Shown here: positions 8,975 through 48,711 of the stretch, one piece after another
How the letters are laid out: every line of letters starts with the position of its first letter
How positions within the stretch are numbered: position 1 is the stretch's first letter
Source: Hydrogenophilales bacterium
Lineage (GTDB): Bacteria; Pseudomonadota; Gammaproteobacteria; Burkholderiales; Thiobacillaceae
DNA: 64,000 nucleotides
Assembly: GCA_023258975.1 (NCBI GenBank)
Contig: JAHFRD010000010.1
Coordinates: 1-64,000, forward strand
Direction of reading: 5' to 3'
Position numbers and translations under genes: made by a program
Notes under the pieces: generated by a model
The model's input: the letters and a program-made list of their open reading frames with translations, nothing else
What the model was told of the DNA's origin: nothing
Databases searched by the model: none

Positions 8975-9527
8975 ACTGCTTTCGCGGCATGGAATCACTG
9001 ACCGCGTCCTGGTAATCCGCAGCCAGCGGGTGATGCTGGATGCCGATCTGGCGGAGCTTTACGGCGTTGCCACCAAACGCTTCAACGAGCAGGTCAAGCG
9101 CAACCTGGCCCGCTTTCCGCCGGAATTCATGTTTCAACTGACGGCGGAAGAGTTCGCTTCTTTGAGGTCGCAAATTGCGACCTCAAACAGCGAAGGGAGG
9201 TGGTCGCAAATTGCGACCACCTCGCCCGGACGCGGTGGCCGCCGCCATGTTCCCTACGCCTTCACCGAACACGGCGCCATCATGGCCGCCACCATTCTGA
9301 ATTCACCGAAGGCGGTGGAAATGAGCGTGTTCGTGGTGCGCGCCTTCGTCGAGTTGCGGGAATGGCTGTCCACACATCGCGAGCTGGCGGAAAAACTGGA
9401 TTACCTGGAACGTAAAGTCTCCTCCCACGATCAAGCCCTGGCCGGCGTCATCGACGCCATCCGCCAATTAACCGCACCCGCCAACCCCAAGAAACGCCCC
9501 ATCGGTTTCGTTACCGACCCGGAATAA
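8967..9527 (+). CDS. ORF6N-domain protein
   Basis: A 186-residue protein with an N-terminal ORF6N domain, known from phage antirepressor-like and chromosomal accessory proteins: [25 protein letters not shown], then LRSQIAT and [20 protein letters not shown] start at 8967 overlaps the end of ribF by eight bases. A coiled-coil-like tail follows the domain. The LRSQIAT coding stretch is duplicated with a spacer ([12 protein letters not shown] then [11 protein letters not shown]), and both copies lie on DNA palindromes. It probably binds DNA; its role is unknown. It sits as an accessory insert between ribF and ileS. Confidence 0.85.
9164..9223. repeat. Paired palindromes with TCGCAAATTGCGA core inside the ORF6N gene
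   Basis: Two perfect palindromes share a core. 9164-9184 has 10-bp arms around a central base (GAGGTCGCAA-A-TTGCGACCTC), and 9197-9223 has 13-bp arms. They encode the duplicated SQIAT segment. They may be protein binding sites or a duplication of the conserved coding motif. Confidence 0.8.
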
Positions 9528-12998: not shown

Positions 12999-13026
12999 TA
13001 AAGTTTCCCCCCCTGTTCGCCGCTAA
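12999..13026 (+). promoter_or_regulatory. Sigma-28 (FliA)-like promoter of the chemosensory operon
   Basis: TAAAGTTT at 12999-13006 is a perfect match to the FliA -35 box, and GCCGCTAA at 13019-13026 matches 7 of 8 of the -10 box. The spacer is 12 bases and contains a seven-C run; the consensus is 11. It lies directly ahead of the first cheW, so the ATG at 13026 would be upstream of the transcript start. Confidence 0.75.
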
Positions 13027-13058: not shown

Positions 13059-13568
13059 GTGAACCGCTTGGCAGACAACGACACTTCGCACCGCCTCCTG
13101 TACATGGCGGTCGCGGGGCACCATTTTTGCCTGCGCCTGGGCGATGTGGAGCGTTTGCTGCCTTTGATGCAGGTGCAGAGCGTGCCGGAAGGGCCGGACT
13201 ACCTGTTGGGCGTGATGAATCTGCGTGGCGAGGCGGTACCGGTACTGGATCTGGCGCGGCGCCTCAATCTCCCCGCCGTGGCGCGCTACGCGCTCGATAC
13301 CCCGGTGGTGTTGGCGGCCATCGGCGGCCTGCGCGCCGGGCTGGTGGTGGACGAGGTGCAGGGTGTGCGGACGGTGCCGCGCGCGGCCCTGCGTGGCGAT
13401 GCCCTGTTCCGCGACGGCCTGCCGCCGGTGCTCTCGGCGGTCACCAGTTCCGACGGCACCGCCCTCCTGCTCGACGCGTTGCGCATTCTGGACATCGACC
13501 TGTCCGGCCTGTCGCGGCCGCTCGCCCTCGACGACGAACTGCTTTCCCTGTGCCGGGAGAACAATTGA
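13059..13568 (+). CDS. cheW: CheW-type adaptor protein (first of two)
   Basis: A CheW-domain scaffold that would couple MCPs to the CheA kinase, 169 residues from GTG 13059. The fold is recognised from LYMAVAGHHFCLRLGDVERL, YLLGVMNLRGEAVPVLDLA and GLVVDEVQGV. An ATG at 13026 is in the same frame but lies inside the predicted sigma-28 -10 box, so the GTG after the G-rich TCTGGGGC is preferred; ATG 13104 is another possibility. It is the first gene of the chemosensory operon and corresponds to WspB in a Wsp-like order. Confidence 0.85.
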   Translation: MNRLADNDTSHRLLYMAVAGHHFCLRLGDVERLLPLMQVQSVPEGPDYLLGVMNLRGEAVPVLDLARRLNLPAVARYALDTPVVLAAIGGLRAGLVVDEVQGVRTVPRAALRGDALFRDGLPPVLSAVTSSDGTALLLDALRILDIDLSGLSRPLALDDELLSLCRENN

Positions 13569-13594
13569 TGCGGAGTCTCAGCGTTGACCGCATC

Positions 13595-13652
13595 GTAGGA
13601 GCGGGCTTGCCCGCGATAGCCACCGTCGTATCGCGGGCAAGCCCGCTCCTGC
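13595..13652. repeat. REP-like palindrome, family A copy 2
   Basis: A 24-bp inverted repeat (arms 13595-13618 and 13629-13652) with one mismatch near the base, same core as 13-70. It lies between cheW and cheR inside the operon. Confidence 0.85.
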
Positions 13653-13665
13653 GAGAGGCGCGCTG

Positions 13666-15135
13666 ATGCCGGCCCGCGCCCTGCTTCCCGCCATCGAGGA
13701 GCAGATCTGCCTGCTGGTGCGCGAGCGCACCGGCATTCGCATCCACGATCACCAGATGGACACCCTGCGCCGCACCGTGGCCGACGGCCTGGCGCGCTTC
13801 GACCATGCCGGCGAGGCGGACTATCTGGCCGCCCTGCGCGCCGCGCGGGCGAGTTCACCGGAATGCGAGCACCTGATCGCCGGCATCACCGTGGGCGAGA
13901 GTTATTTCTTCCGCGACCAGGCGCAGATGGACTGGCTGCGCGAGCAATACCTGCCGCGCGTGATCGCTCGGCGGCGCGAGGAAGGCAACCTCTCCCTGCG
14001 CATCTGGAGCGCGGGCTGCTCCGACGGCCAGGAGTTGTACAGCGTGGCCATGCTGCTGGCGGAACTGCTGCCGGACAGGGAGCGCTGGAACCTGCACCTG
14101 CTCGGCACCGACCTCAATGCTGCGGCCCTGGCGCGCGCCCTGCGCGGCCGCTACAGCGAATGGTCGTTGCGCGCCACCCCGGAAGCGGCGCGGCAACGCC
14201 ATTTCCATCATGAAAGAGATCACACCTGGTCGATTTCACCCGCCTTGCGCGGCCATGTCCGCTTCGCCTACCTGAACCTGCGCGAGGACAGCTTCCCCTC
14301 GATGTTGAGCGAGACCACCGCGCTCGACCTGATTTTCTGCCGCAATGTGTTCATCTATTTCGACCCGGCCATCGTCGCCGAGGTTTGCGCCAAGTTCCAC
14401 GCCTGCCTGAACCCGGGCGGCTGCCTGTTGCTGGGCGCCTCCGACCTGATCGACAGCGCCGCGCTGCGCGGTTTCACCCTGCGCGGTCTGGACAACGCCT
14501 TCTATCTGGAACGCCACGACACCACCCCGGCGATCGTCCCGGCGGCCGTTCCGGAAACCGCGCCGACGCGAGCCATCGAACCGCCACGGCCGCAGGTCGC
14601 CGCTCAGGCCGCCGCGCCGGCGGCGAGCTACGAGGACATCACCGCCCTGCTTGGGCGCGAGCAATGGCGCGAGGCCCTGGCGGCGATCACCGCTCGCCAG
14701 ATGGCGGACGACAGCGGCGCGCTGCTTCCGCAGTTCCGCGCCAAGGCGCTGGCCAACCTGGGGCGCGCGCGGGAAGCGCTGGAAGCCTGCGATGCCAGCC
14801 TGGCGCGTGATGGCGACGACAAGCACAGCCACTTCCTGCGCGCCCTCATCCTGCAGGAACTGCATCGCCCACAGGCGGCCGAGGAATCCCTGCGCCGCAC
14901 CCTTTATCTGGATCGCAACTTCGTGGAAGCGCACTACCAGCTGGGTCTGTTGCAGATGCGGCGCGGGGCGCGCCAGAGCGGGCTCAAGTCGATGAAAAAC
15001 GCTCTGGCCATCGCCGAGCGCATGCGGCCGGAGCGCCGCCTGCACGATGCCGCCGGACGCGACCACAAGCGCATGGCGGCCATCCTGCGCCACGAACTGC
15101 GCATGTACGAAGCGGACAGCGGAGGCAAGCGATGA
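13666..15135 (+). CDS. cheR: CheR-type MCP methyltransferase with TPR domain
   Basis: A 489-residue SAM-dependent glutamate methyltransferase acting on MCPs. The N-terminal CheR helical domain is followed by the SAM-binding domain (GESYFFRD, RIWSAGCSDGQELYSVAML, LLGTDLN, LIFCRNVFIYF, GGCLLLGASD). A proline/alanine-rich linker at about 285-315 leads to a C-terminal TPR region of about 150 residues. CheR with TPRs is the WspC arrangement. The CheR Cys in WSAGCSDGQE replaces the commoner ..CATGEE. The stop overlaps the next gene (ATGA). Confidence 0.93.
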   Translation: MPARALLPAIEEQICLLVRERTGIRIHDHQMDTLRRTVADGLARFDHAGEADYLAALRAARASSPECEHLIAGITVGESYFFRDQAQMDWLREQYLPRVIARRREEGNLSLRIWSAGCSDGQELYSVAMLLAELLPDRERWNLHLLGTDLNAAALARALRGRYSEWSLRATPEAARQRHFHHERDHTWSISPALRGHVRFAYLNLREDSFPSMLSETTALDLIFCRNVFIYFDPAIVAEVCAKFHACLNPGGCLLLGASDLIDSAALRGFTLRGLDNAFYLERHDTTPAIVPAAVPETAPTRAIEPPRPQVAAQAAAPAASYEDITALLGREQWREALAAITARQMADDSGALLPQFRAKALANLGRAREALEACDASLARDGDDKHSHFLRALILQELHRPQAAEESLRRTLYLDRNFVEAHYQLGLLQMRRGARQSGLKSMKNALAIAERMRPERRLHDAAGRDHKRMAAILRHELRMYEADSGGKR

Positions 15136-15719
15136 CCCCGGCCGAAACCCCATATCCGAAACCCGAAATCCCCGACTCCCCCCACGCTCGGGCCGTCCTG
15201 CATCGCCGCGCGGTCAGGCTGGCCAGCGAGGGAGAACAAGCCCGCGATCAGGCCCGGCGGGCGCCGCGCGGCGACCTGTTTCTCGCCGTGCGGCTGGGCG
15301 CGCGGGAGCACTACGGCATCCCCTATCGCTGGCTCGACGAGATCGCGCGGCCACGCGGCGTAACGAAGGTGCCCGGCACGCCGGCCTTCGTCGCCGGGGT
15401 GATGGCGCGGCGCGGGCAACTGCTCGCCGTGCTCGACCTCGCGCGCCTGCTGCGCGTGGTGGGAAATGAAGAGTGCGGCGAGGACAACGAGGAAACCCGG
15501 CTGGTTCTGGTCAGCGCCGCCGGCTACAGCGTCGGTCTGCGCGTGGCCGAGGTGCTCGGCAACGACCGCTATCGAATCGAGTCGCTCGGCCCGCCCCTGC
15601 CCGGCACCGCCAGCGGCGAAGAAAACTGGATTACCGGCATCCACGCCGGACGCCTGGCCATGCTGGATCTGGAAGCCCTGCTGGGCGACCCGCGAATCAG
15701 GATCGAGGAACCCTCATGA
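15132..15719 (+). CDS. cheW: CheW-type adaptor protein (second)
   Basis: A 195-residue CheW-domain protein in the WspD position after CheR-TPR. The CheW core runs from about residue 50 (LFLAVRLGAREHYGIPYRWLDEI, FVAGVMARRGQLLAVLDLARLL, GLRVAEVLGN, ITGIHAGRLAMLDLEAL). The N-terminal part (TPYPKPEIPDSPHA) is encoded by a copy of the ATCCGAAACCCGAAATCCCC repeat also found inside cheA, so it looks acquired by repeat insertion. ATGA overlaps join it to cheR and to the next gene. Confidence 0.85.
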   Translation: MTPAETPYPKPEIPDSPHARAVLHRRAVRLASEGEQARDQARRAPRGDLFLAVRLGAREHYGIPYRWLDEIARPRGVTKVPGTPAFVAGVMARRGQLLAVLDLARLLRVVGNEECGEDNEETRLVLVSAAGYSVGLRVAEVLGNDRYRIESLGPPLPGTASGEENWITGIHAGRLAMLDLEALLGDPRIRIEEPS

Positions 15720-16792
15720 ACGCAATGCAAAGCAGCCACAGCAACAGCCCCGCGCGCATTCTGGTGGTGGACGACATGGCCACCAACCGCGCCCTGATTC
15801 GCGCGGTGCTGGACGCGCGGGAATTCGAGGTGCTGGAGGCGGAGTCCGGCGATGCCGCCCTGGCGCGCGTCCCCGCGCTGCGCCCAGACGTGGTTCTGCT
15901 CGACGTGATGATGCCCGACATCGACGGCATCGAAGTCTGCCGCCGCCTGCGCGCGCAGGAGGAATTCCGCCTGCTGCCCATCATCATGCTCACCTCCCTG
16001 GGCAGCCCGGACGACGTGGTGCATGGCATGGAAGTGGGCGCCTCCGACTACATCACCAAACCGTTCAACGCGGTGGAACTGACCGCGCGGGTACGCGCCG
16101 CCGTGGACAAGAAACGCCTGACCGACCGCCTCGACGACACCGAATCGGTGTTGTTCGCGCTGGCCCGCGTGGTCGAGGCCAAAGACGGCACCACCGGCGA
16201 CCACTGCGACCGCCTCTCGCATCTCTCCGTGGTGCTGGGCGAGGCGCTGGGCCTGCCTTTCGACGATCTTGAAGCGTTGCGCCGAGGCGGCATCCTGCAC
16301 GACATCGGCAAGGTCGCCATCCCCGACGCCGTCCTGCTCAAGAAGGGCAAGCTCGACGAGGCGGAATGGGCGGTCATGCGCCAGCATCCGACCACCGGCG
16401 CGTATCTGTGTAGCGCCCTGCGCACCATGCGCCGCACCGTGGACATCATTCGCTACCACCACGAGAAGTGGAACGGCGGCGGCTACCCATCCGGCCTGGC
16501 CGGTGCCGACATCCCCCTGCTGGCGCGCATCTTCCAGGTGGTGGACGTCTACGACGCGCTCTCCAGCGAACGCCCCTACAAACCTGCCCTGGCGCGTGAG
16601 GAGGTCATTCGCATCCTGCGCGAGGAAACCGCACGCGGCTTCTGGGACCCGGACATCGTCGGCGTCTTTCTGGACATTCTGGAACACGACCCCGCCCGCC
16701 TGGACATTCCCGCCGACGCCGTGCGCGGCCGCGATGCCGACCTGTTCCACAACATCAGCGGCGACGCGATGGAGTGGAGGGACCGGAGATGA
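15716..16792 (+). CDS. Response regulator with HD-GYP c-di-GMP phosphodiesterase domain
   Basis: A 358-residue two-domain regulator. The REC domain (about 15-135) has the acidic pair VVDD and phosphoacceptor Asp in VVLLDVMMPDIDG, with Lys in ITKPFN. The HD-GYP domain (about 145-340) has ILHDIGKVAIPD, QHPTTGA, IIRYHHEKWNGGGYPSG and VVDVYDAL, so the metal and GYP residues are present. It probably hydrolyses c-di-GMP when phosphorylated by the operon's CheA. It replaces the usual CheY, or the WspR cyclase, as the diffusible output. The start at ATG 15716 overlaps the cheW stop. Confidence 0.93.
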   Translation: MNAMQSSHSNSPARILVVDDMATNRALIRAVLDAREFEVLEAESGDAALARVPALRPDVVLLDVMMPDIDGIEVCRRLRAQEEFRLLPIIMLTSLGSPDDVVHGMEVGASDYITKPFNAVELTARVRAAVDKKRLTDRLDDTESVLFALARVVEAKDGTTGDHCDRLSHLSVVLGEALGLPFDDLEALRRGGILHDIGKVAIPDAVLLKKGKLDEAEWAVMRQHPTTGAYLCSALRTMRRTVDIIRYHHEKWNGGGYPSGLAGADIPLLARIFQVVDVYDALSSERPYKPALAREEVIRILREETARGFWDPDIVGVFLDILEHDPARLDIPADAVRGRDADLFHNISGDAMEWRDRR

Positions 16793-16807
16793 TTTCGGCT
16801 TTGACTC

Positions 16808-16862
16808 GTAGCGCCGGCATCTTGCCGGCTTTTAAAAGACGCCGGCAAGATGCCGGCGCTAC
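16808..16862. repeat. Family B perfect hairpin abutting a start codon
   Basis: Arms of 22 bp (16808-16829 and 16841-16862, GTAGCGCCGGCATCTTGCCG) are perfectly complementary. The right arm ends at the base before the ATG at 16863, so it could affect translation of the globin-coupled MCP. Confidence 0.9.
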
Positions 16863-18800
16863 ATGCCGGGTGATCCCATGATCGAAAAATTCCTGACCGA
16901 CACCGCCAACGCCAACCTCTCCGAACTCATGGGCCTGGACGCGGCGCAACAGGCGCGGCACAAGGCCTTCATCGGGCTGACCGAGGCGGATCTGGCCCTG
17001 CTGGTGGAACTGGCTCCGGAGATCGAACGCCATGCCGACGCGGTCGTCGATGGTTTTTACGCCAACGTCCAGCACTACCCGGAACTGGAACAACTGATCC
17101 AGGGCGTCGGCTCCAACATGGAACGCCTGAAGCGCACCCAGCGCGCCTACCTGCTGGAACTGTTCAAGGGCGACCTGGGGCCGGAGTATTTCGAGCGGCG
17201 CCTGCGCGTGGGCGTGATCCACCACAAGATCGGCCTTACCCCGCGCTGGTATCTGGGCAGTTACTCGGTCTACATGCAGTTGCTCGCGCCCCTCATCTTC
17301 CGCCACTGGCGCTGGCAACGCGGGCGCGCCCTGCAAGCCGTGATGGCGCTGGACAAGGTGCTGTCGCTGGACGCCCAACTCGCCATCGACACCTACATCC
17401 ACAGTCTCGGCGCCGAACTCAAGGTGGTCAGCCTGTCCAAGGAGGAACTGGAACAGCGCCTGGCCGCCTACAACGGCCTCATCGACCGCGTCGCCCAGGG
17501 TGACCTGACCGCGCGTGTGCAAGTGGCCAGCGGATCGGCGGACGACCTCTCGAACCTGGGCGACAACCTGAACAAGATGACCGACCGCCTCGCGGAAATG
17601 ACCAGCGAGGTCGCCGAATCCAGCAACGCCATGCTGGTCAGCGTCGAGCAGGTGCGCGCCTCCATCGGCGCCCAGTCCAGCGGCGCCGCGCAGCAGGCCG
17701 CCTCGGTCAACGAAACCACCGCGACGCTGGAACAGATCAAGGCCACCTCGCAGCAGACCCTGGAAAAAGCCAGCGCGCTCAAGGAAGTGGCCGACCGCGC
17801 CCGCAGCGAGGGCGACCAGGGCCTGGCGGCGGTGGAAGCGGCGGTGAACGCCATGCGCCACACGCGCGGCCAGGTGGAGGCCATCGCCGGCCACATCGGC
17901 GTGCTCAACGAGCGTCTGCAACAGATCGGCGACATCACCAACGCGGTGGGCGAACTGGCGTCGCAATCCAAGATGCTGGCGCTCAACGCCTCGATCGAGG
18001 CGGCCAAGGCCGGCGACGCCGGGCGCGGCTTCGCCGTGGTGGCGGAGGAAGTGCGCGATCTGGCGGAACAGTCACGCCAGGCCACCACCCAGGTGCAGGG
18101 CATCCTGGCGGAGATTCGCAACGCCGCCGCGCGCGCGGTGCGCGCCGTGGAAGAAGGCAACGAGGGCGCCGACCGTGGCGCCAATCTGGCCGACCGCGCC
18201 GGCGAGACCCTGCACGGCCTCAACCGGGTGATCCACGACACCGCCCTGGCCAGCCAGCAGATCGTCGCCGCCGTGCGCCAGGAGGCCGCCGGCATCGACC
18301 AGATCCGCATCGCCATGGGCGACATCAGCCGGGTCACCAGCCAGTTCGTCGTCGCCACCCACCAGACCGAGGCCGCCACCGACCAGCTCACCGACTATGC
18401 CGCCCTGTTGCAGAACATGGTGCGGCTGTTCCAGGTGGGCGGCGCCCGCTTCGACTTCGACCGCGCGCGCACCCTGCACCACACCTGGGTAGCGCGGCTG
18501 GAAGCCTTCCTGGCCGGGCGCGAGAGCCTTGCCGAGGAGGAGGCCGTCTCCCACCACCACTGCCAGTTGGGCCGCTGGTATGACGGCGAGGGCCTGCAAC
18601 GCTACGGCCATATTCCGGAAATGCTCGCCCTGGATGCGCCGCACCGCGAACTGCACGAACTGATCCACGAGGTGGTGCAACAACAGAACGGCGGCCGCCA
18701 TCCCAACGCCGAACGGGTGATGAACCGGGTACGCACCCTCTCCGCCCGCATCGTCGAACTGCTCGACATCATCGAGGCCAAGTGCAGGGAGTCGGCATGA
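16863..18800 (+). CDS. Globin-coupled MCP with C-terminal CZB domain (oxygen sensor)
   Basis: A soluble chemoreceptor of 645 residues (640 if it starts at ATG 16878). The N-terminal 180 residues form a protoglobin-type heme sensor as in HemAT: helices with FYANVQHYPELEQLI and the proximal-His motif VIHHKIGLTPRWYLGSY, likely His120. A HAMP-like segment, RVAQGDLTARVQVASGSADD, is followed by the MCP signalling domain with its tip around SQSKMLALNASIEAAKAG and [17 protein letters not shown]. The C-terminus is a CZB zinc-binding domain with HCQLGRWYDGEG and HRELHELIHE. There are no membrane segments. It probably reports oxygen or redox state to the operon's CheA. Confidence 0.92.
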   Translation: MPGDPMIEKFLTDTANANLSELMGLDAAQQARHKAFIGLTEADLALLVELAPEIERHADAVVDGFYANVQHYPELEQLIQGVGSNMERLKRTQRAYLLELFKGDLGPEYFERRLRVGVIHHKIGLTPRWYLGSYSVYMQLLAPLIFRHWRWQRGRALQAVMALDKVLSLDAQLAIDTYIHSLGAELKVVSLSKEELEQRLAAYNGLIDRVAQGDLTARVQVASGSADDLSNLGDNLNKMTDRLAEMTSEVAESSNAMLVSVEQVRASIGAQSSGAAQQAASVNETTATLEQIKATSQQTLEKASALKEVADRARSEGDQGLAAVEAAVNAMRHTRGQVEAIAGHIGVLNERLQQIGDITNAVGELASQSKMLALNASIEAAKAGDAGRGFAVVAEEVRDLAEQSRQATTQVQGILAEIRNAAARAVRAVEEGNEGADRGANLADRAGETLHGLNRVIHDTALASQQIVAAVRQEAAGIDQIRIAMGDISRVTSQFVVATHQTEAATDQLTDYAALLQNMVRLFQVGGARFDFDRARTLHHTWVARLEAFLAGRESLAEEEAVSHHHCQLGRWYDGEGLQRYGHIPEMLALDAPHRELHELIHEVVQQQNGGRHPNAERVMNRVRTLSARIVELLDIIEAKCRESA

Positions 18801-18861
18801 GGGCGAAAAACAGCCGGCCAGCGGGGGGCAGCGGCCATCCGGATCGACCCGGGAGACAGCC

Positions 18862-21027
18862 GTGATCCACGTTGAAAACCTCTCCATGCGCGACAAGCTG
18901 GTCGCCGTGCTGGTATTGCCCCTGTTCGCCCTTGGCCTGTTCGCCGGCCACGCGCTCTGGCAGGAAACCCTGCGGCAGGCCGGCATGGCGGATTTGGCGC
19001 GCGCCGGCACGTTATCCCTGGCAATCGGCAACCTGGTGCATGAACTCCAGGCGGAACGCGGCCGCAGCGGCCTGTTCCTGTCCAGCCGGGGACAGCGTTT
19101 CGCGATGGAACAGGCCCGGCAGCGCGCGGCGACCGACCAGGCCTGGCGCGCGCTGGAATCGCTCAACGCGCGGGACGCGAATCGCGACCTTGGCCTGCCC
19201 GCCAGCCTGCTGGCGGAACGTCGCGCGGAACTGGCGCAATTGCGCGGTGAAATTGATCGCCTGGCCTTGCCCGCCACGCGCGCCGTGGAAACCTACAGCC
19301 TGACGATACGCGCGCTGCTGGGCTCGCTCGATGGCCTCTCCGCGCGCTCGCCCGATGTCGAAATCGCGCGCCAGTTTTCCGCCTACCGCTGGCTCGCCCA
19401 GGCCAAGGAGGCCGCCGGACTGGAACGCGCGGAGGGTGGCCGTTGGCTGGCGGGAGAAGGCGGCGCGAGCCTGCAAAACCGGCTGATCGAACTCGCGGCC
19501 AACCAGACCCTGTTGCTCGAACAGTTTCTGGCGCGGGCGCCGGAACCCCTGCGCCGCGCCTGGCGCGATGCCGAACAAGTCGACTGCGTGCAGGCCCTGC
19601 CGGCGTTGCGCGCGTCCCTGCGCGATGCCCAGGCCAGGGCGCGCCCCAGTCCGGAAACCTGGTTCGACACGGCCAGTTGCCGCATGGAACGCCTGCACGA
19701 CGTGGAGGCCACTTACGCGCGCCACCTCACCGAACTGACCGGCGCGCTGGACGCGGCCAGCCGCCAACGCCTGATCTGGATCGTGTCGCTCGCCCTGCTG
19801 CCCATCCCCCTCAGTCTGTGGCTGATCGTGCGGGTGGCGCGCAACGTGAGCGGCAACTCGCGCTGGCTGCTCACCGCCATGCACGGCATCGCCGGCGGCA
19901 ACTTCAACGTCTCCCTGCCGCCGAAAAGCCGCGACGAACTGGGCCAGCTCTCCAGCAGCCTGGACGCGCTGCGCGGCCAGCTCGCGCAACTGGTCGCCGA
20001 ACAGGGGCGGCAACTGAATCGCGAACGCGGGATGAGCACGGAACTGGAACGGCACAGCCTGGAAATCCAGCATTTCGCGCAACGCATCGCCAGCGGCGAC
20101 CTCTCCGGGCGCCTGACCGAAGGCGACGACACCCTGGGGCGCCTGGCCGGCAGCCTCAATCACATGGCCGAGGGCCTCGCGGGCCTGGCCGGGCGCGTGC
20201 GCGAAACCGGCTCCACCCTGATCGTGACCGTCAGCCAGATGCAGAGCGCGGTGGCGGCGCAGTCCTCGGGAGCCAGCGAGCAGGCCGCCTCGGTCACCCA
20301 GACCATGACCACCCTGGAAGAGATTCGCGCCACCTCCGGGCAAACCCTGGAGAAGGCGCAGCGGCTCGGCGAGATGGCGGAACGGGCGCGCAGCGAAGGC
20401 GAACACGGGCGCCGGGTGGTGGAGGAAAGCATCGTCGGCATCAGTGAAGTGAATCTCAAGGTGGATGCCATCGCCCGCACCATCCTCTCCCTCAATGAGC
20501 AGACCCAGCGCATCGGCGAGATCACCTCGGTCGTGGGCGGCATCGCCCGGCAACTGCGCCTGCTCTCGCTCAACGCGGCGATCGAGGCGACCCGCGCCGG
20601 CGAGGCGGGCCTGGGCTTCGCGGTGGTCGCCATCGAGGTGAAGCAACTCGCCGAACAATCGCAGGCGTCCACCGAACAGGTACAGCACATCCTGGAAGAA
20701 ATCCGCCATGCCACCGACCGCGCGGTGATGGCCACCGAGGACGGCGCCAAGGGCGTGGTGCATGGCCTCGAACTGGTGCAGCGCGCCGGCGAGGCGATTC
20801 GCGGCCTGGAAGGCGTGGTGCGCGACACCAGCCTGGGCAGCCGCCAGATCGTCGCGGCGGTGCGCCAGGAAAGCGCCGGCATCGAACAGATCGCCACCGC
20901 CATGAGCGACATCCACGCCGTCACCACCCGCTTCGTCACCGCGACGGAACAGACCCGCGCCGCCACCGATGAGCTCTCCCACCTCGCGCAACGGTTGTCG
21001 GCCGTGGCGAGTCTGTACAAGGTGTGA
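18862..21027 (+). CDS. NIT-domain methyl-accepting chemotaxis protein (nitrate/nitrite sensor)
   Basis: A 721-residue transmembrane chemoreceptor. The start is GTG 18862 with GGGAG six bases upstream. A membrane segment (about 14-34) precedes a periplasmic helical domain with the NIT signature LVHELQAERGRSGLFLSS, the nitrate- and nitrite-sensing domain family. A second membrane segment lies near 308-328. Two HAMP-like segments follow (TAMHGIAGGNFNVSLP and RIASGDLSGRLTEGDD), then the MCP signalling domain (LRLLSLNAAIEATRAGEAG). It ends LYKV, with no CheR-binding pentapeptide. It sits between the globin MCP and cheA, so both inputs probably feed one kinase. Confidence 0.9.
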   Translation: MIHVENLSMRDKLVAVLVLPLFALGLFAGHALWQETLRQAGMADLARAGTLSLAIGNLVHELQAERGRSGLFLSSRGQRFAMEQARQRAATDQAWRALESLNARDANRDLGLPASLLAERRAELAQLRGEIDRLALPATRAVETYSLTIRALLGSLDGLSARSPDVEIARQFSAYRWLAQAKEAAGLERAEGGRWLAGEGGASLQNRLIELAANQTLLLEQFLARAPEPLRRAWRDAEQVDCVQALPALRASLRDAQARARPSPETWFDTASCRMERLHDVEATYARHLTELTGALDAASRQRLIWIVSLALLPIPLSLWLIVRVARNVSGNSRWLLTAMHGIAGGNFNVSLPPKSRDELGQLSSSLDALRGQLAQLVAEQGRQLNRERGMSTELERHSLEIQHFAQRIASGDLSGRLTEGDDTLGRLAGSLNHMAEGLAGLAGRVRETGSTLIVTVSQMQSAVAAQSSGASEQAASVTQTMTTLEEIRATSGQTLEKAQRLGEMAERARSEGEHGRRVVEESIVGISEVNLKVDAIARTILSLNEQTQRIGEITSVVGGIARQLRLLSLNAAIEATRAGEAGLGFAVVAIEVKQLAEQSQASTEQVQHILEEIRHATDRAVMATEDGAKGVVHGLELVQRAGEAIRGLEGVVRDTSLGSRQIVAAVRQESAGIEQIATAMSDIHAVTTRFVTATEQTRAATDELSHLAQRLSAVASLYKV

Positions 21028-21030
21028 GCT

Positions 21031-23244
21031 GTGCCCCGTAACGACATCGACCCGCGCCTGATGCAGCAACTGCTGCAAACCTTCCGCGCGCAACTGGACG
21101 AACGCCTGCAGGCCATCGTCGACGGCTTGCTGGCGCTGGAACAAGGCGCCGCCGGAGAAAAACGCGCGAAAATCCTCGACGCCATCTTTCGCGATGCCCA
21201 CAACATCAAGGGGGCGGCGCGCGGCGTCGGCCTGGAGCGAGCGGCGGAACTCGCGCATGCCCTGGAGGATTTGTTCTCCGCGCTCAAGCGCGATGCCGTG
21301 GTCAGCCAGCCCGGCCTGGTGGAACTGTGCCTCGCCGCCGTGGAGGGATTGCGCAGCCTGGTCGAAGTGGAAGCGGCGGACGGTTCGATCAGCCCGAACA
21401 GCGCCGATCTGTTGCAACGCCTGCGCGCGGTGGCGGCGGGCGCTCCCCCGCCAGCGCCGGCCACGGCGACAGCGGCGCCCGCGTCGGCAAGGGCGCGGCC
21501 TCTGCTGGATACCATCCGCCTGCCGGTGTCGCGCCTGGATCGCATCGCCGATCTGGCGGAAGAATTGCAGGCCAGCAAGATCCGCGTCGATGACCATTAC
21601 CAGGTGAGCCGCCAGCAACACGACCTGGCGCAACGTCTCGGGCAAATCTGGGAACAGATCGGCCAGTCGCGGCGATCCGTCCATTCCGAAATCCGAAACC
21701 CGAATTCCGAACTCCCCCAGGATCGGCATCTGCTCACCGAAGCCAGCGACCTGATTCTGGAAATCGAGCGCCTGGCCGACTCCATGCAGCGCGGCCTGCG
21801 CGCCACCGTGGCGCAGTTGCGCCCGTTGGCCGTGGCCTTGCGCGAGGACGTGCGCGACCTGCGCATGGTGCCGGCGGAAAGCGTGCTCAAACCCCTGGTG
21901 CTGACCGTGCGCGATCTGGCGCGCGGCCTGGGCAAGCAAGCGGAGCTGCTGCTGGAGGGCGAACGCCTGGAAATGGATCGCGCCATCCTGGATGCCCTGC
22001 GCGACCCGTTGACGCACCTGCTGCGCAATGCCGTGGATCACGGCATCGAAACGCCGACACAGCGGCGTCTCCTGGGCAAGGCGGAAACCGGTCTGATTAC
22101 CCTGCGTCTGGAACGGGAGGGGCAGTCGGTCATGGTCACGGTGTCCGACGATGGCGCCGGGGTCGATGCCACCCGGGTGCGCGGGCGCATCCGCGATCTC
22201 GGCCTGGCCAGCGAGGAGGAGGTCGCGGCCCTGTCCTCGCGCGACCTGCTCGACTACCTGTTCCGCCCTGGTTTCAGCACCCGCGACGAGGTGACCGAAA
22301 TCTCCGGACGCGGGGTCGGGCTGGACGTGGTGCAGGTAAATCTGCAAGCCTTGGGCGGTCGCATCGCGGTGGATACCGAGTTGAACGGCGGTGCCCGCTT
22401 CCGGCTCACCCTGCCGCTCACCCTGGCCAGCGACCACGGCCTCCTGGTGCGCGTGGCCGGTCAGGTCTTCGCCCTGCCCAGCCTGTATGTGCAGCGCATC
22501 CTGGAACTGGCGCCGGAACAGATTCTGGAGGTGTCGGGCAGCCAGGCGGTGCTGGTCGACGACACGCCGGTGCCGCTGCGTGACCTGGCCGCCCTGCTCG
22601 GGCAGCGCGGCGGCGCGGAAGACTATGCCGAACTCATCAGCGTGGTGGTGATCCAGCGTGGCTGGCAGCGCGTGGCGCTGCGCGTGGATCACGTTCTCGG
22701 TGAGCGCGAGATGGTGGTCAAACCGCTGGCGCCGCCCCTGGTGGCGGTGCGCCATGTCGCCGGCGGCACCCTCGGGCGCGACGGCGACATCCTGCTGGTG
22801 CTGGCGGTGGGCGATCTGCTCGCCAGCGCGTTGGGCGCCAGCGGCCACGTGGTATCGCGGCGCCATGCCGAAGCTCCTCCCACGCGGCGCATCCTGATCG
22901 CCGACGACTCCATCACCACCCGCACCCTGGAGCAAAGCATTCTGGAAAACGCCGGCTATCGCGTGCAGGTCGTCGCCGACGGCGAGCAGGCGTGGGAAGC
23001 GCTGCGCGGCGGCAGCTTCGACCTGCTCATCACGGATGTGGAGATGCCCGAGCTGGATGGTTTTGATCTCACCCGCCGGATTCGCGCGGACACGCGCCTG
23101 GCCGATCTCCCGGTGGTCATCGTCACCTCGCTGGGCAGCGAGGAACACCGCCGCCGCGGCCTGGAAGTCCGCGCCGACGCTTACGTTGTGAAAAGCAGCT
23201 TCGAGACGCGGGAACTGCTGGAAGTGGTGGAACAACTCTTATGA
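21031..23244 (+). CDS. cheA: CheA-type hybrid histidine kinase with C-terminal receiver
   Basis: A 737-residue chemosensory kinase starting at GTG 21031. The HPt domain has phospho-His57 in RDAHNIKGAARGVGL. There is no obvious CheY-binding P2 domain. Dimerisation and ATPase domains follow (LTHLLRNAVDHGIETP, VSDDGAGVDATRVRGRI, EVTEISGRGVGLDVV), then a CheW-like domain (about 450-600). A C-terminal REC domain carries Asp in LLITDVEMPELDG. The CheA-REC fusion is the WspE layout. At 21683-21720 an in-frame copy of the CCGAAATCCGAAACCCGAAT repeat encodes an insert (HSEIRNPNSELPQD) after the dimerisation start. Confidence 0.94.
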   Translation: MPRNDIDPRLMQQLLQTFRAQLDERLQAIVDGLLALEQGAAGEKRAKILDAIFRDAHNIKGAARGVGLERAAELAHALEDLFSALKRDAVVSQPGLVELCLAAVEGLRSLVEVEAADGSISPNSADLLQRLRAVAAGAPPPAPATATAAPASARARPLLDTIRLPVSRLDRIADLAEELQASKIRVDDHYQVSRQQHDLAQRLGQIWEQIGQSRRSVHSEIRNPNSELPQDRHLLTEASDLILEIERLADSMQRGLRATVAQLRPLAVALREDVRDLRMVPAESVLKPLVLTVRDLARGLGKQAELLLEGERLEMDRAILDALRDPLTHLLRNAVDHGIETPTQRRLLGKAETGLITLRLEREGQSVMVTVSDDGAGVDATRVRGRIRDLGLASEEEVAALSSRDLLDYLFRPGFSTRDEVTEISGRGVGLDVVQVNLQALGGRIAVDTELNGGARFRLTLPLTLASDHGLLVRVAGQVFALPSLYVQRILELAPEQILEVSGSQAVLVDDTPVPLRDLAALLGQRGGAEDYAELISVVVIQRGWQRVALRVDHVLGEREMVVKPLAPPLVAVRHVAGGTLGRDGDILLVLAVGDLLASALGASGHVVSRRHAEAPPTRRILIADDSITTRTLEQSILENAGYRVQVVADGEQAWEALRGGSFDLLITDVEMPELDGFDLTRRIRADTRLADLPVVIVTSLGSEEHRRRGLEVRADAYVVKSSFETRELLEVVEQLL
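21683..21720. repeat. In-frame ATCCGAAA-type repeat inside cheA
   Basis: The stretch reads CATTCCGAAATCCGAAACCC and then CGAATTCCGAACTCCCCC. Related strings occur at 15149-15182 inside the second cheW and at 26758-26776 between two genes. Confidence 0.65.
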
Positions 23245-23262
23245 TTTCGGTCTTCACTCAGC

Positions 23263-23330
23263 GCCTCGTGGGAGCGGGCTTGCCCGCGATGCAACGCCGG
23301 CTATCGCGGGCAAGCCCGCTCCCACGAGGC
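23263..23330. repeat. REP-like palindrome, family A copy 3
   Basis: Perfect 28-bp arms (23263-23290 and 23303-23330) fill the gap between cheA and cheB. Compared with copy 1 the stem has GTGGGAGC/GCTCCCAC in place of GTAGGAGC/GCTCCTAC. Both arms changed together, so pairing is kept. Confidence 0.9.
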
Positions 23331-23341
23331 GGGTCGGCGCG

Positions 23342-24382
23342 ATGATCAACATTCTTATCACCGAAGATTCCGACGTCGTCGCGGCCCTGTTGCAAGGCAT
23401 ATTCCACGCCGAGCCGGACATGCGGGTGATCGGGCGGGCGCGCGATGGGCGCGAGGCGGTGACCCTGGCGCGGGAATTGAAGCCGGACTTGGTGACCATG
23501 GATATCCGCATGCCGGTGATGGATGGCTTCGAGGCCACGCGCATGCTCATGGCCACGCAGCCCCTGCCCATCGTGGTGATCAGTTCGAGCGTGGACGACG
23601 AGGAATTGCGCATCACTTTCCGCGCCATCGAGGAAGGCGCGCTGGCGGTGATCGAGAAGCCGCGCGGCCTGGCGCATCCGGATTTCGAGCGGCTGCGCCG
23701 CGAATTGGTGGAGACGGTGCGCGCGATGGCCGAGGTCAAGGTGGTGCGACGGCGCCGCCCTCAGCCCAGCGCGGCCATCTTCCAGCCCCAGCCACCTCGC
23801 CACGGCACCCAACATGAGGTGGTCGGGCTGGCGCTGTCCACCGGCGGGCCGCAGGCGCTATCCACACTGCTGGCCGGCATGCCGGTCGGCTATCCGCTGC
23901 CGCTCCTGGTGGTGCAGCATATCTCGCCCGGCTTTGTCGGCGGCCTGGTGAGCTGGCTGCGCGGCCAGACCCTGCTGGAAGTGTGCCTGGCCAGGGCGGA
24001 CATGCCGTTGCTGGCGGGCACCGTGTATGTCGCGCCGGATGACCAACATCTGGAAGTGGCGCGCCGCAACGGCCGCCTGCATACCCGTTTGTCCTCGGAG
24101 CCGCTGATCGAACGCTTCCGCCCATCGGCCACCGCCCTGTTCCATTCCCTGGCGCGTTGCTGCGGCGCGACCGCGGTCGGCGGTATTTTCACCGGCATGG
24201 GTTCCGATGGCTGCGCCGGCCTGATCGCCCTGCACCAGGCCGGTGGCCATGTCTTCGCCCAGGACGAGGAAAGTTCCGTGGTCTACGGCATGCCGGGCGC
24301 GGCCCGCGCCGCCGGCTGCGTGGATCAGGTCGTCCCTTTGGCGCGTATTCCCACGCATCTCATTGAAATGGCAAGGAGCTGA
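23342..24382 (+). CDS. cheB: Protein-glutamate methylesterase/deamidase
   Basis: A 346-residue CheB that removes MCP methyl groups. The REC domain (1-120) has ITEDSD and Asp in LVTMDIRMPVMDG. The catalytic domain has the Ser in LALSTGGPQALS, the His in VVQHISPGF and the Asp in FTGMGSDGCAGL. It corresponds to WspF. The gap to cheA is filled by a hairpin repeat, which may lower downstream expression. The next gene starts three bases after its stop. Confidence 0.96.
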   Translation: MINILITEDSDVVAALLQGIFHAEPDMRVIGRARDGREAVTLARELKPDLVTMDIRMPVMDGFEATRMLMATQPLPIVVISSSVDDEELRITFRAIEEGALAVIEKPRGLAHPDFERLRRELVETVRAMAEVKVVRRRRPQPSAAIFQPQPPRHGTQHEVVGLALSTGGPQALSTLLAGMPVGYPLPLLVVQHISPGFVGGLVSWLRGQTLLEVCLARADMPLLAGTVYVAPDDQHLEVARRNGRLHTRLSSEPLIERFRPSATALFHSLARCCGATAVGGIFTGMGSDGCAGLIALHQAGGHVFAQDEESSVVYGMPGAARAAGCVDQVVPLARIPTHLIEMARS

Positions 24383-24384
24383 CC

Positions 24385-25209
24385 ATGCCGTCACACCCCA
24401 ATCCCCCACCACCCATGTCCTTGTCGCGCGAGGCGTTGCTGGATGTTTTCTGCAAGGAAACGCGGGAACGCCTCGCGCGGGCGCTGGCCTGCCTGGAGCG
24501 GGGTTCGGAGGACTGCGACTACGATCTCGTGCATCAGGAATTCGACAGCCTGCACGGCGGCGCGCGCGCGGTGGATCTCCCCTGGCTGGAGCATTACAGC
24601 CGGGTGGTGGCGGGCTACGCGCGGCTGCTGCGCCACCTGAGGCGCGGTGGCCAGCACGAGGAAACCCACGCGTTGCTCACCCAGGCGGTCACCGCGCTGG
24701 TGGAGCAATGCCGCAAAACCCCGCTGGCCGAGATGCTTGCCGGGGAAGAGCCGGAATTGCCGCTGCGCGAGATGATGAACAACATGCAGGCCCTGATGCG
24801 GCGCGCCAGCCTGACGGAACTTTCTCCCTGCGCGCGATTGCCGGCGGGGCGCCCGCTCGTGCTGCTGGTGGTGGACGATTCCTCGACCTCGCGCATGTTG
24901 TTCCGCATTCACATGCCGACGGAGGGCGGACATGCCGTGCATGAGGCGGAGGGCGCCGCGAGCGCCCTGCGCGTCGCCCTGGAAGTCCGGCCGGACGTGG
25001 CGTTCCTGGATTACAACATGCCCGATTGCAACGGCATCGAAATCGCCCGCAACCTGCGCGCGGCGGGCCTCGATCCGTACTGCTTCCTGCTCACCGCCAA
25101 TGTGCAGCAAGCGATCATCGAGGAAGCGCGCGCGGCGGGCTTCGTCGGCGTGCTGGAAAAGCCGGTGAGCCGCGACAAGATCAGCGCCGCCCTGCGCATC
25201 GCCCCTTAA
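24385..25209 (+). CDS. HPt-REC fusion response regulator
   Basis: A 274-residue protein with AAGGAG before ATG 24385. Residues about 12-120 form a helical HPt-like module with the candidate phospho-His in EFDSLHGGARAVDLPWLEHY. Residues about 152-274 form a receiver (LLVVDDSSTSRMLF, Asp in VAFLDYNMPDCNG, Lys in VLEKPVSRD). It could shuttle phosphate from CheA or act as a phosphate sink for the operon. No DNA-binding or enzymatic output is present. Confidence 0.82.
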   Translation: MPSHPNPPPPMSLSREALLDVFCKETRERLARALACLERGSEDCDYDLVHQEFDSLHGGARAVDLPWLEHYSRVVAGYARLLRHLRRGGQHEETHALLTQAVTALVEQCRKTPLAEMLAGEEPELPLREMMNNMQALMRRASLTELSPCARLPAGRPLVLLVVDDSSTSRMLFRIHMPTEGGHAVHEAEGAASALRVALEVRPDVAFLDYNMPDCNGIEIARNLRAAGLDPYCFLLTANVQQAIIEEARAAGFVGVLEKPVSRDKISAALRIAP

Positions 25210-25223
25210 CCGGATCGAGCGCG

Positions 25224-25838
25224 ATGCACCTATCGGACGCGCAACGCGATGTGCTCACGGAACTGGGCAATATCGGCATCAGCCGGGCCGCGAGCCAGCT
25301 TTCCATGCTGCTGAACGAGCCGATCCGCATCGCGGTGCCGCGCGTGGAGCTCTGTACCGCGAGCGAGGCCGGCCGCTACCTGGAAAACAACAGTGGCGAG
25401 CTGGCCTGCGTCTACCAGCGCATGTCCGGCGAATTGAACGGGCGCATCGCTCTGCTGCTGCCCTCGCGCGGCAGCCAGCTCCTGTTTCAGGAACTGCTCG
25501 GCCACGCCGCACCGCTGCACGCCCTGGATCTGCGCGCCTTTGAACACGAGGCGATGACCGAGATCGGCAACATCCTCATTTCCTCCTGCGTCAGCGCCAT
25601 GGCCGACATGCTGGAACTGCGCATCGACGTCTCCGTTCCGCGCTATGCCGAAGCCACCGCGCAGGATCTGTTCAACGACGCGGCGCTGGATCGCGCGGAG
25701 CCACCGGCGCTGCTGATCCACACCGAACTGACCGCCGCCCGGCGCGGGCTGGAAGGCAGGATTCTGCTGATGCTGTCGGCGGCGGCGGCGGAAAAGGTGA
25801 TGTTCGCGGTGCAGGCGCTGATTCTGGCGGCGGAATAG
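25224..25838 (+). CDS. cheC: CheC-family CheY-P phosphatase-like protein
   Basis: A 204-residue protein with both CheC/FliY-type phosphatase motifs: LTELGNIGISRAASQL near the N-terminus and MTEIGNILISSCVSAM in the second half. It would dephosphorylate a receiver domain, here probably the HD-GYP or HPt-REC regulator. CheC usually works with CheD, which is not in this window. ATG 25224 follows the previous stop by 14 bases. Confidence 0.85.
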   Translation: MHLSDAQRDVLTELGNIGISRAASQLSMLLNEPIRIAVPRVELCTASEAGRYLENNSGELACVYQRMSGELNGRIALLLPSRGSQLLFQELLGHAAPLHALDLRAFEHEAMTEIGNILISSCVSAMADMLELRIDVSVPRYAEATAQDLFNDAALDRAEPPALLIHTELTAARRGLEGRILLMLSAAAAEKVMFAVQALILAAE

Positions 25839-25841
25839 GCC

Positions 25842-26756
25842 ATGTACGACCACCCCTACGATCCCCTGCCCATCGGCGTCCTGGTGCTGGATGGCCAGAT
25901 GCGCATCCGTGAATGGAACCGCTGGCTGGCCGAGCACACCGGCATCCCCGAGACGCGCGCGGTTTCACAGCGCCTGGAAGACCTGTTTCCCGGCTTTCGC
26001 AACCCGCGTTTCCAGATGGCCGTGGATCTGGTTCTGCGCAACGGCGGGCCGCAAATCCTGTCGCAGGCGTTGCACCGCTACCTGATTCCCATCGACCTGC
26101 CGCACCTGGCGCGCCACGGCTTCGGCCTGATGCGCCAGCATGTGCATATCGAGGCCTACCACTGGCGGGGCGAGCATCTGGCCGTGGTCAGCGTGATCGA
26201 CGTGACCGGCAGCGTGCTGCGCACCGAGGCGCTCACCGACGTGGCGCAACGCCTGGAGCACGATGTCAACCGCGACCCGCTGACCGGCCTGTTCAACCGC
26301 CGTTTCATGTGGGAATGGCTGGATCATCAGCAACGCCAGGCACAGCGCCACCACTACCCGATCGCGGCCATGATGCTGGACGTGGACCACTTCAAGAGCA
26401 TCAACGACCGCCACGGCCACCCCGTCGGCGACCGCGTGCTGTGGGATCTCGCGCGGCAACTGGTGATTTGGGTGCGTGAATCGGACATCGTGGTGCGCTA
26501 CGGTGGCGAGGAATTTCTGATTCTGCTGCCCTGCTGCGACCAGGCGCTGAGTAGCGAGGTGGCCGAGCGCATCGTGCGCCAGACTCGCCAGAGCGGCCTG
26601 GGCGGCCTGCCCATCGGCGCCGTCACCTGCAGCATTGGGGTCGCCCTGTTTGAAACCGATCACCCGCTCCCCCCCGCCGACCTGCTCAACCTTGCCGACC
26701 GCCGCCTCTATCTGGCCAAGCAGGCCGGGCGCGACCGGGTCGTGACCAGCGGCTGA
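25842..26756 (+). CDS. PAS-GGDEF diguanylate cyclase
   Basis: A soluble 304-residue cyclase that starts four bases after the cheC stop and is the last gene of the chemosensory operon. An N-terminal PAS fold (IGVLVLDGQMRIREWNRWLAEHTG) leads into a GGDEF domain (RDPLTGLFNRRFMWEWL, MLDVDHFKSINDRHGH, VVRYGGEEF). The I-site RESD lies five residues upstream, so product inhibition is expected. It lacks a REC domain, so it is not WspR itself. It opposes the HD-GYP enzyme encoded in the same operon. Confidence 0.92.
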   Translation: MYDHPYDPLPIGVLVLDGQMRIREWNRWLAEHTGIPETRAVSQRLEDLFPGFRNPRFQMAVDLVLRNGGPQILSQALHRYLIPIDLPHLARHGFGLMRQHVHIEAYHWRGEHLAVVSVIDVTGSVLRTEALTDVAQRLEHDVNRDPLTGLFNRRFMWEWLDHQQRQAQRHHYPIAAMMLDVDHFKSINDRHGHPVGDRVLWDLARQLVIWVRESDIVVRYGGEEFLILLPCCDQALSSEVAERIVRQTRQSGLGGLPIGAVTCSIGVALFETDHPLPPADLLNLADRRLYLAKQAGRDRVVTSG

Positions 26757-28194: not shown

Positions 28195-28239
28195 GGCGGG
28201 TTTTTCCGCGCGGGAACGCCGCTGGTGGCGCCGCGCGGC

Positions 28240-28881
28240 TCAGAACGGCACGTCGTCGTCGTCGATGCTGGAAAAGCTGGCGGAGCCACCGCTCGTGGGC
28301 GCGGCACCGGCCGGAGGGGCGTCGGCGCGGACCACGGTTTCACGCAGGTTGCCGACCATTTTCTCCAGGGCTTGCCCGGATCGGGCGCCCGAGAGGATCT
28401 CGGAGGGGGTGCTGCGGTCGCGCGGGTCGAAGAACTGGACGATCTTCATGCTGACGTAGGTCTTGCCTTCCCACTCGCGTTCCTCGCGCTGCAACAACAA
28501 GCCGACGGGTTTGTTCATCAACTCTGGAAAGGTCTGCGCTTCGGTCGGCGCCCACTGGCCGGTGGCGGCGTTCCATTCATCGACGGTTTCCTGGGTGGAG
28601 TCGATCTTCTTCACCTCCAGGCAGGCCATCAGCGCCGAGAGCAGGCTGAACGGGTATTCGATCTTGTCGCCGTTGGCGCGGGCGACCCAGAGCGTGAGGT
28701 AGCGCGCCACGCGCCCGTCATCCGCCTCGAAGGTGAATTCGATGCCGCGCGTGCCGGTCTTGGCGGTGCGCTCCTTGGCCAGGGTGAGGCGGCCGATATA
28801 GGCGCCGGAAGTTTCGATCTTGCCGCCGAAGGTGGCTTCGGGCTGGACGGCGAGCTGGTCGTCGCGGGTGTAGCTGGTCAT
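28240..28881 (-). CDS. Unknown protein with SSB-like acidic C-terminal tail
   Basis: A 213-residue protein not assigned to a family with confidence. AGGAGG precedes its ATG, which supports a real gene. The N-terminal 110 residues look like a beta-rich, possibly OB-like fold (TLAKERTAKTGTRGIEFTFE, YLTLWVARANGDK). The end is a Ser/Gly-rich linker and the tip SSIDDDDVPF, close to the E. coli SSB tip DFDDDIPF that recruits replication and repair partners. Phage DUF669-like or SSB-like proteins also carry such tips. It may bind single-stranded DNA. No other phage genes lie nearby. Confidence 0.75.
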   Translation of the reverse strand: MTSYTRDDQLAVQPEATFGGKIETSGAYIGRLTLAKERTAKTGTRGIEFTFEADDGRVARYLTLWVARANGDKIEYPFSLLSALMACLEVKKIDSTQETVDEWNAATGQWAPTEAQTFPELMNKPVGLLLQREEREWEGKTYVSMKIVQFFDPRDRSTPSEILSGARSGQALEKMVGNLRETVVRADAPPAGAAPTSGGSASFSSIDDDDVPF

Positions 28882-28941
28882 GGGGTGTCCTCCTGGTGGG
28901 TTGGATGCGCGAAGCGCGCTCGCAACCCGCTTTATCGCGGC

Positions 28942-30117: not shown

Positions 30118-30125
30118 GCCGATAG
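30099..30125 (+). promoter_or_regulatory. Sigma-28-like promoter before the histidine kinase gene
   Basis: TAAAGAGG, exactly 11 bases, then GCCGATAG. The -10 box matches the FliA consensus in 7 of 8 and the -35 box in 5 of 8. If used, transcription would begin after the ATG at 30127, so translation would start at ATG 30163 or further in. Its left part overlaps the first codons of hemW. Confidence 0.45.
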
Positions 30126-30126
30126 T

Positions 30127-48675: not shown

Positions 48676-48711
48676 GGCAGGCAATCTCAAAAAGAATGGA
48701 CGGAGACCCCC

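Follow-up and report, generated by a model that had tools for sequence, protein, structure and literature searches.

A chemosensory operon with globin and NIT receptors, paired cyclic di-GMP enzymes and a predicted FliA promoter in a Hydrogenophilales bacterium

Eleven co-directional genes fill positions 13059-26756 of a 64,000-nt stretch (hereinafter the window) of contig JAHFRD010000010.1 from a Hydrogenophilales bacterium, and a Pfam profile search of the window proteins identifies them as a chemosensory gene cluster with two predicted enzymes of cyclic di-GMP (c-di-GMP) turnover. All lie on the forward strand with intergenic gaps of -4 to 97 bp, and the Pfam domains named here are over cut-off except where stated. 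A first coupling protein gene, cheW (13059..13568, 169 aa, CheW 94.8 bits), is followed by a cheR-TPR methyltransferase gene (13666..15135, 489 aa, CheR 162 bits), whose weak TPR at residues 375-419 stays under the Pfam cut-off (TPR_1, 24.9 versus 27.8 bits), and by a second cheW (15132..15719, 195 aa, CheW 82.8 bits). Next come a predicted phosphodiesterase with a receiver (REC) and an HD-GYP domain (15716..16792, 358 aa, Response_reg and HD_5) and two methyl-accepting chemotaxis proteins (MCPs), one with Protoglobin, MCPsignal and CZB domains (16863..18800, 645 aa) and one with NIT, HAMP and MCPsignal domains (18862..21027, 721 aa). The hybrid kinase CheA-REC (21031..23244, 737 aa; Hpt, HATPase_c, CheW and Response_reg), with a phospho-accepting His57 in its P1 domain that is invariant in 11/11 sequences, precedes a CheB methylesterase with a receiver (23342..24382, 346 aa; Response_reg and CheB_methylest). 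The run closes with a protein in which only Response_reg is recognized (24385..25209, 274 aa), a predicted CheC-family CheY-P phosphatase (25224..25838, 204 aa, CheC 66.4 bits) and a predicted PAS-GGDEF diguanylate cyclase (25842..26756, 304 aa; PAS_4, and GGDEF 153 bits).

Domain content and gaps bear out the gene order and single strand given in a preliminary description of this DNA, which had been made from the sequence without database searches, with the starts of the REC-HD-GYP and CheC genes corrected to 15716 and 25224. The GTG start of the first cheW at 13059 is likewise retained, because a longer open reading frame (ORF) would start at an ATG (13026) that runs into the -10 box of a sigma-28 promoter predicted there; the CheW score given above is that of the longer frame. 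The overall reading of that description, a chemosensory operon with HD-GYP and cyclase outputs, holds; the sensory inputs and the sigma-28 promoter had been missed.

In a contig scan the best 80 of 586 confirmed stretches (590 found) were kept, and the related loci named here are accordingly an incomplete set. The identical eleven-gene order occurs in seven complete loci (the window, L039, L041, L044, L045, L046 and L138), and L040, L042 and L043 agree with it up to their contig ends; two of the six complete loci other than the window belong to another family and have other neighbours. The window, L039, L044 and L045 are flanked by lspA and fkpB-ispH, L041 by lspA and a gene for an HHH-domain protein, L046 by radical SAM and NYN genes, and L138 on both sides by genes without a Pfam match. 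Such differing flanks around a constant order place the ends of the unit at the first cheW and the PAS-GGDEF gene. The order noted in the preliminary description, shared by two families amid different neighbours, is more than a chance arrangement, and the sequence comparison indicates that the eleven genes are one inherited unit. At least 11 genomes, the source genome included, carry the module or its relative. When the ninth protein of the run was used as query, matches of about 55% identity or more were obtained in 9/101 near genomes (8/23 in the genus, own genome included, and one in another family) and matches at E 1e-25 in just 5/399 genomes drawn from the order, again counting its own, which marks the module as rare; in the draw from the phylum the only full-length match among 398 genomes was the source genome itself, and three others covered mainly the receiver. 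A search for plasmid carriage of the module gave no match at E 1e-15.

Related modules come from another family (L139), a gammaproteobacterial metagenome-assembled genome (MAG; L048) and a Rhodocyclaceae MAG (L107). They place the HD-GYP gene first and the rest in similar order, keeping HD-GYP, globin MCP, CheA, CheB, receiver, CheC and PAS-GGDEF; the NIT receptor of L048 stands at the far end of its locus, and a ParA-like ORF, judged from its sequence, lies between cheR and cheW in L139 (L139:14751-15398). In a Coxiellaceae MAG (L047:3678-5378 and 13317-16000) the core comes with a PAS-PAS receptor; CheC is matched twice there, and the gene upstream, which is divergent, reads to us as REC-GGDEF-EAL. 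The module proteins of L045, from genome G010, are 53-80% identical to those of the window and its flanking proteins 63-84%; cassette replacement is possible there, though the flanks differ from the module only modestly in this respect.

A predicted FliA (sigma-28) promoter, TAAAGTTT-N12-GCCGCTAA (12999..13026, forward strand), lies upstream of the first cheW with one mismatch to the sigma-28 consensus, for which we used the form that we take to be standard. Sites with at most two mismatches, on either strand and with spacers of 9-13, number two in the window (this promoter and one at 48649) versus one in ten 64-kb Markov sequences. With at most three mismatches and a spacer of 11 or 12, exactly one coding-strand site is present per ~14-kb module in 7/7 complete same-order loci, and in each it sits just before the first gene. 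Alignment of the seven upstream regions gives a mean column identity of 44% and 24 invariant columns, 12 of which make up TAAAG-TT and G-CG-TA in the promoter boxes while the other 12 are scattered; the longest invariant run falls in the -35 box. The genome encodes fliA (266.9 bits versus a cut-off of 189.6) and contains six sites of the pattern, compared with one for the reversed pattern. They precede cheV, a motA-like gene, an MCP-bearing frame, a REC-HD-GYP gene, an MCP of a second che cluster and the cheW described here, where cheV and the MCP on contig C28 were labelled by search, the genes on C8 and C16 by position, and motA by sequence reading alone. This footprint suggests that the operon is transcribed from a FliA promoter, and its expression in the cell would then depend on FliA. 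The second REC-HD-GYP gene (G000:C16:14762-15786), with its site 32 bp before the start, possibly encodes another flagellar-regulon phosphodiesterase. The other sigma-28-like site of the window (48649-48711; TCAAGTTT-N11-GCCGTTAA, two mismatches) lies just before a HAMP-MCP gene at 48712-50331.

Both predicted output enzymes look intact. In the HD-GYP protein, aligned to 4mcw, the receiver residues and the HD, HHE..GYP and metal-ligand positions are kept in 10/10 loci, the motif reading HHExxNGxGYP in the window and the residue before GxGYP being N or D among the ten. Its closest solved relatives are 5z7c, a 3'3'-cGAMP phosphodiesterase (E 8.9e-40), and 4mcw (E 2.6e-36). The cyclase keeps GGEEF and the RxxD I-site in 10/10 loci, with a GGDEF variant in the further row L043, and by Pfam it has a PAS domain and no receiver. 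Among the matches listed, neither enzyme reaches an NCBIfam equivalog cut-off, the best being SiaD for the cyclase (164.6 of 290 bits) and the NosR family for the HD-GYP protein (157.2 of 400 bits). The proposal that an HD-GYP protein with a complete receiver is an output of the operon is supported, with catalysis and phosphotransfer predicted, as is that of a second output in a cyclase without REC.

The two receptors differ in their sensory domains. The globin of the first MCP matches HemAT (1or4, E 3.6e-21) with H120 aligned to the HemAT proximal His, a residue kept in 10/10 loci compared, and the protein has no hydrophobic segment at a Kyte-Doolittle (KD) value of 1.6. Its C-terminal CZB zinc domain is shared by all seven complete same-order loci, the window included, and absent from L139, L048 and L107. 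The NIT domain of the second MCP is well over its Pfam cut-off (136 versus 24.9 bits) and is flanked by two hydrophobic segments, from residues 9 and 303; it is 67-69% identical to that of the window in L039, L041 and L044. Within the genus, a NIT domain is encoded by 8/8 carriers of the module and 6/15 non-carriers, and the source genome encodes a full-length narG. The first MCP thus appears to be a soluble globin-coupled sensor, presumably of oxygen through heme, and the second a membrane NIT receptor, presumably of nitrate or nitrite. One NIT and one protoglobin MCP are also reported for Methylospira mobilis (PMC6956133).

The genome has 14 MCP matches and two other che clusters, CheA-CheZ-CheY-CheV (C5) and MCP-REC-CheA-CheW (C28). 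The receptor tip reads Q[SL][KR] in 17/17 pattern-matched receptors of module loci and QTN in 4/4 pattern-matched non-module receptors of the same genome, so that K or R in the former takes the position of the N of QTN in the latter. The pattern was unmatched in the NIT receptors of L046, L138 and L048 and in the other eight receptors that the genome encodes outside the module, which for the most part lie beyond the loci scanned. Of six Wsp loci scanned, two gave a tip match, both QTN.

The ninth protein had been described as HPt-REC, and of this the receiver and a P1-like fold stand while the phospho-accepting histidine does not. Its Pfam Hpt match is under cut-off (18.4 versus 24.6 bits), and Asp54 occupies the phospho-His site invariantly in 12/12 sequences. 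Set against the P1 of the module CheA in a profile comparison, the domain aligns its Asp54 to CheA His57 (E 0.0005, probability 31%). For a full-length AlphaFold2 (AF2) model the 50 matches listed were receiver entries, judged by title and length, and we therefore modelled the N-terminal domain alone (pLDDT 85.7, pTM 0.78); the six best Foldseek matches of this model are CheA P1 entries, the first being 3kyi (TM 0.69, E 0.027). L139 and L048 encode this histidine-less pseudo-P1 (134 and 139 aa) and the receiver (119 aa) as distinct, neighbouring genes, and in L107 and L047 the receiver is found without a pseudo-P1, so that in all four it is a stand-alone gene. Given the separate genes, the P1-like fold and Asp54, the window protein combines, as far as sequence and model tell, a CheY-like receiver with a CheA-P1-like domain from which the histidine is missing, the two being fused. 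An HPt acting in a phosphorelay was rejected as a role, since the histidine is replaced in 12/12 sequences and a P1 that lacks it is unlikely to relay phosphate. It is also unlikely that His50, one helical turn before the lost His and invariant in the same 12, serves as a moved phospho-acceptor. The E52xx[ST]55 in this helix resembles what we take to be a kinase-phosphatase motif, a likeness too weak to claim.

The receiver gene adjoins cheC in 14/14 loci that hold both, L047 included, and cheC adjoins the PAS-GGDEF gene in the 14 loci examined. Because the three are contiguous throughout, the arrangement suggests that CheC acts on the pseudo-P1-linked receiver, that the trio is a working unit, and that this receiver is the likely link to the cyclase. 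CheC retains two ExxN active-site motifs in an 11-row alignment, from which the first motif of L039 was left out; the cheC match of that locus (L039:14257-15042) spans 262 codons against a 208-residue query, which may reflect an insertion or a start problem.

The Pseudomonas Wsp pathway combines CheR-TPR, two CheWs, CheA-REC and CheB with the output WspR, and the cluster had been called Wsp-like on this part list. The shared parts are present, with the TPR weak as noted above, but kinship is not supported, given the CheA clade, the missing WspR and the globin and NIT receptors. In a CheA tree built by a quick method from 87 of 90 rows (the over-long L117, L124 and L125 dropped; long branches and uneven composition flagged), 14 rows form a clade (SH-aLRT 100) that unites the window CheA with the module loci, L139, L107, L048, L047 and L053, the last a Magnetococcales locus that begins inside cheA and in which CheA and CheB alone are matched. 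Apart from it stands a branch of 39 rows (100) to which the Wsp loci of Pseudomonas and Burkholderia belong. No REC-GGDEF output of the WspR kind is found in the cluster, whose GGDEF protein has PAS in place of a receiver. Wsp membership was accordingly rejected. The CheA of G010, from the same genus as the window, sides with those of the two other-family genomes (98), a hint that the cassette has been transferred. The cluster combines CheR-TPR with multidomain response regulators, the mark by which 'ACF-type' pathways are recognized (PMC3447774), and on this basis and that of the CheA tree we assign the operon to a distinct CheR-TPR chemosensory lineage apart from Wsp.

We consider it probable, on balance, that the eleven genes are one inherited operon under a FliA promoter, in which a private array reads electron-acceptor status and sets c-di-GMP. 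The cytoplasmic heme-globin receptor would report oxygen and the membrane NIT receptor nitrate or nitrite, both acting on CheA-REC through the two CheWs, with adaptation by CheR-TPR and CheB. Phosphorylated CheA would pass phosphate to the HD-GYP receiver, directly changing c-di-GMP breakdown, and also to the CheY-like receiver of the pseudo-P1 protein; the latter would act in trans on the PAS-GGDEF cyclase until CheC strips its phosphate. The pseudo-P1, not phosphorylatable at the usual place, would most likely dock or modulate its own receiver. More tentatively, and with less than even confidence, we propose a sigma-28-regulon gauge of electron acceptors in swimming cells, wherein oxygen and nitrate receptors feed one CheA that moves c-di-GMP down through HD-GYP and up through PAS-GGDEF. 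The His-less P1 would then serve as decoy or in-cis phosphatase to the CheY joined to it, this CheY would control the cyclase in trans, and CheC would act as reset, in effect a WspR split in pieces.

Several alternatives fit part of these data. The cluster could be a second flagellar taxis pathway, for aerotaxis and nitrate taxis. In that case the CheY-like receiver would bind the motor, CheC would dephosphorylate this receiver in the manner of Bacillus-type systems, and HD-GYP and cyclase would do no more than tune swimming. The FliA promoter in 7/7 same-order loci, the pairing of receiver and CheC, the HemAT-like receptor and the presence of flagellar fliG in 7/8 carriers of the genus would all agree with it. 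We nevertheless regard it as unlikely, since the canonical CheA-CheZ-CheY-CheV cluster lies elsewhere in the genome, the receiver in the window is fused to a pseudo-P1 and is not a single-domain CheY, the receptor tips are unlike those of the four non-module receptors matched, and CheR-TPR with multidomain regulators marks non-motility pathways (PMC3447774). Rather improbable, too, is a scheme in which CheA controls only HD-GYP, PAS-GGDEF is an independent co-transcribed one-component cyclase, and the pseudo-P1-REC protein with CheC forms a phosphate sink. The cyclase indeed lacks a receiver, and a sink plus CheC would suit signal termination, but receiver, CheC and PAS-GGDEF stay together in 14 loci, including L047, where HD-GYP is absent.

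A Wsp system with swapped outputs would explain the shared CheR-TPR, CheW pair, CheA-REC and CheB, yet the 14-row CheA clade apart from the 39-row Wsp-holding branch, the want of WspR, the other receptors and the added CheC and pseudo-P1 leave it highly improbable. The chance that the HD-GYP protein hydrolyses another cyclic dinucleotide, such as 3'3'-cGAMP, or is inactive is also very small: its best solved relative is the 3'3'-cGAMP enzyme, but 4mcw is nearly as close, the motifs are kept in 10/10 loci and a diguanylate cyclase is encoded in the same operon.

A number of observations weigh against the favoured electron-acceptor operon itself. The PAS-GGDEF protein, lacking a receiver, may work on its own. 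In L047, the most distant of the relatives, the core is accompanied by another receptor and HD-GYP is missing, and in L107 no NIT receptor was matched, so that neither the inputs nor the phosphodiesterase are universal. The NIT domain has diverged in L045, L046 and L138 (31-38% identity to the window), and narG is over cut-off in 7/8 carriers and 8/15 non-carriers of the genus, its occurrence in many non-carriers lending the nitrate input little weight. The same coding-strand scan finds no FliA site in L139, L048, L107 and L047, and the promoter spacer is 12 in the window and 11 in the other six loci. The kinship of the pseudo-HPt to P1 is weak both by sequence (31%) and by Foldseek (best E 0.027, none at or below 0.001). 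Arg stands at the tip position in a Chloroflexi receptor from outside the module as well (L090), and the K/R mark is therefore not unique to the module.

The operon shares features with several known systems. With Wsp it has in common the array and adaptation part list and a c-di-GMP output; Wsp has REC-GGDEF whereas this operon has REC-HD-GYP and PAS-GGDEF, and the globin and NIT receptors, CheC, pseudo-P1 receiver, FliA promoter and separate CheA clade set it further apart. We take the domain cd00077 to be HD. A survey that names WspC and WspR records CheR-TPR clusters with REC fused to HPT, GGDEF, EAL and 'metal-dependent phosphatase' (cd00077), and has thus probably already tallied REC-HD in 'ACF-type' clusters; CheR-TPR adjoins multidomain response regulators there as here, and the terms 'HD-GYP', 'HD domain' and 'globin' are absent from its main text (PMC3447774). 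In P. aeruginosa the receiver-GYP regulator of the PA2572/PA2573 pair interacts in a REC-dependent manner with a chemotaxis receptor; that receptor is called an orphan, the regulator has a YN-GYP form, and the abstract and outline mention no such operon (PMC3411652). The Cc-5 aerotaxis cluster of Corallococcus coralloides is likewise a chemosensory cluster with a globin receptor, but its authors found no CheY nearby, and 'GGDEF' and 'CheC' do not occur in the main text (PMC6194562). The globin receptor of the window has the protoglobin and proximal His of the aerotaxis receptor HemAT, a soluble MCP, and is likewise predicted to be soluble; it differs in its C-terminal CZB domain and in having an array to itself. 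Oxygen reportedly sets a cyclase against a phosphodiesterase in DosC/DosP of E. coli, where the heme sensors are said to be fused to the enzymes without a chemosensory array, in contrast to the array here. The eleven-gene combination was not found described in the open-access PMC literature.

Before the operon come genes for a riboflavin kinase/FAD synthetase, an ORF6N-domain protein (8967-9527) and an ileS-like tRNA synthetase, and lspA, the ORF6N-domain gene standing between the riboflavin kinase and ileS-like genes in an otherwise housekeeping run; downstream lie an FKBP-type gene and ispH. Directly after ispH come an 882-aa protein in which Pfam recognizes a kinase ATPase domain only (28225-30873) and, adjoining it, a receiver-TPR protein (30883-32508). 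A Tll0287-like-HAMP-PAS-GGDEF-EAL protein with a C-terminal CZB zinc domain (2477-5812) is a second CZB-bearing, c-di-GMP-linked protein close to the module. Rfam, at its gathering thresholds, finds no RNA element in the window; sigma-70-like sites number 0 versus a shuffle mean of 1.0, and terminator-like sites 6 versus 8.7 in shuffles.

Where chemosensory systems are known to control c-di-GMP, as in Wsp and Pil-Chp, that control mostly runs one way and is linked to surfaces. The module provides a defined example of a P1 domain that has lost its histidine and is joined to a receiver, relatives with the two unfused being at hand for comparison, and as a conserved eleven-gene cassette it is suited to reconstitution. 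If the proposed pathway is correct, a single CheA would govern phosphodiesterase and cyclase jointly, with a link to respiration through oxygen and nitrate and with expression alongside the flagella, and electron-acceptor supply would decide between swimming and settling.

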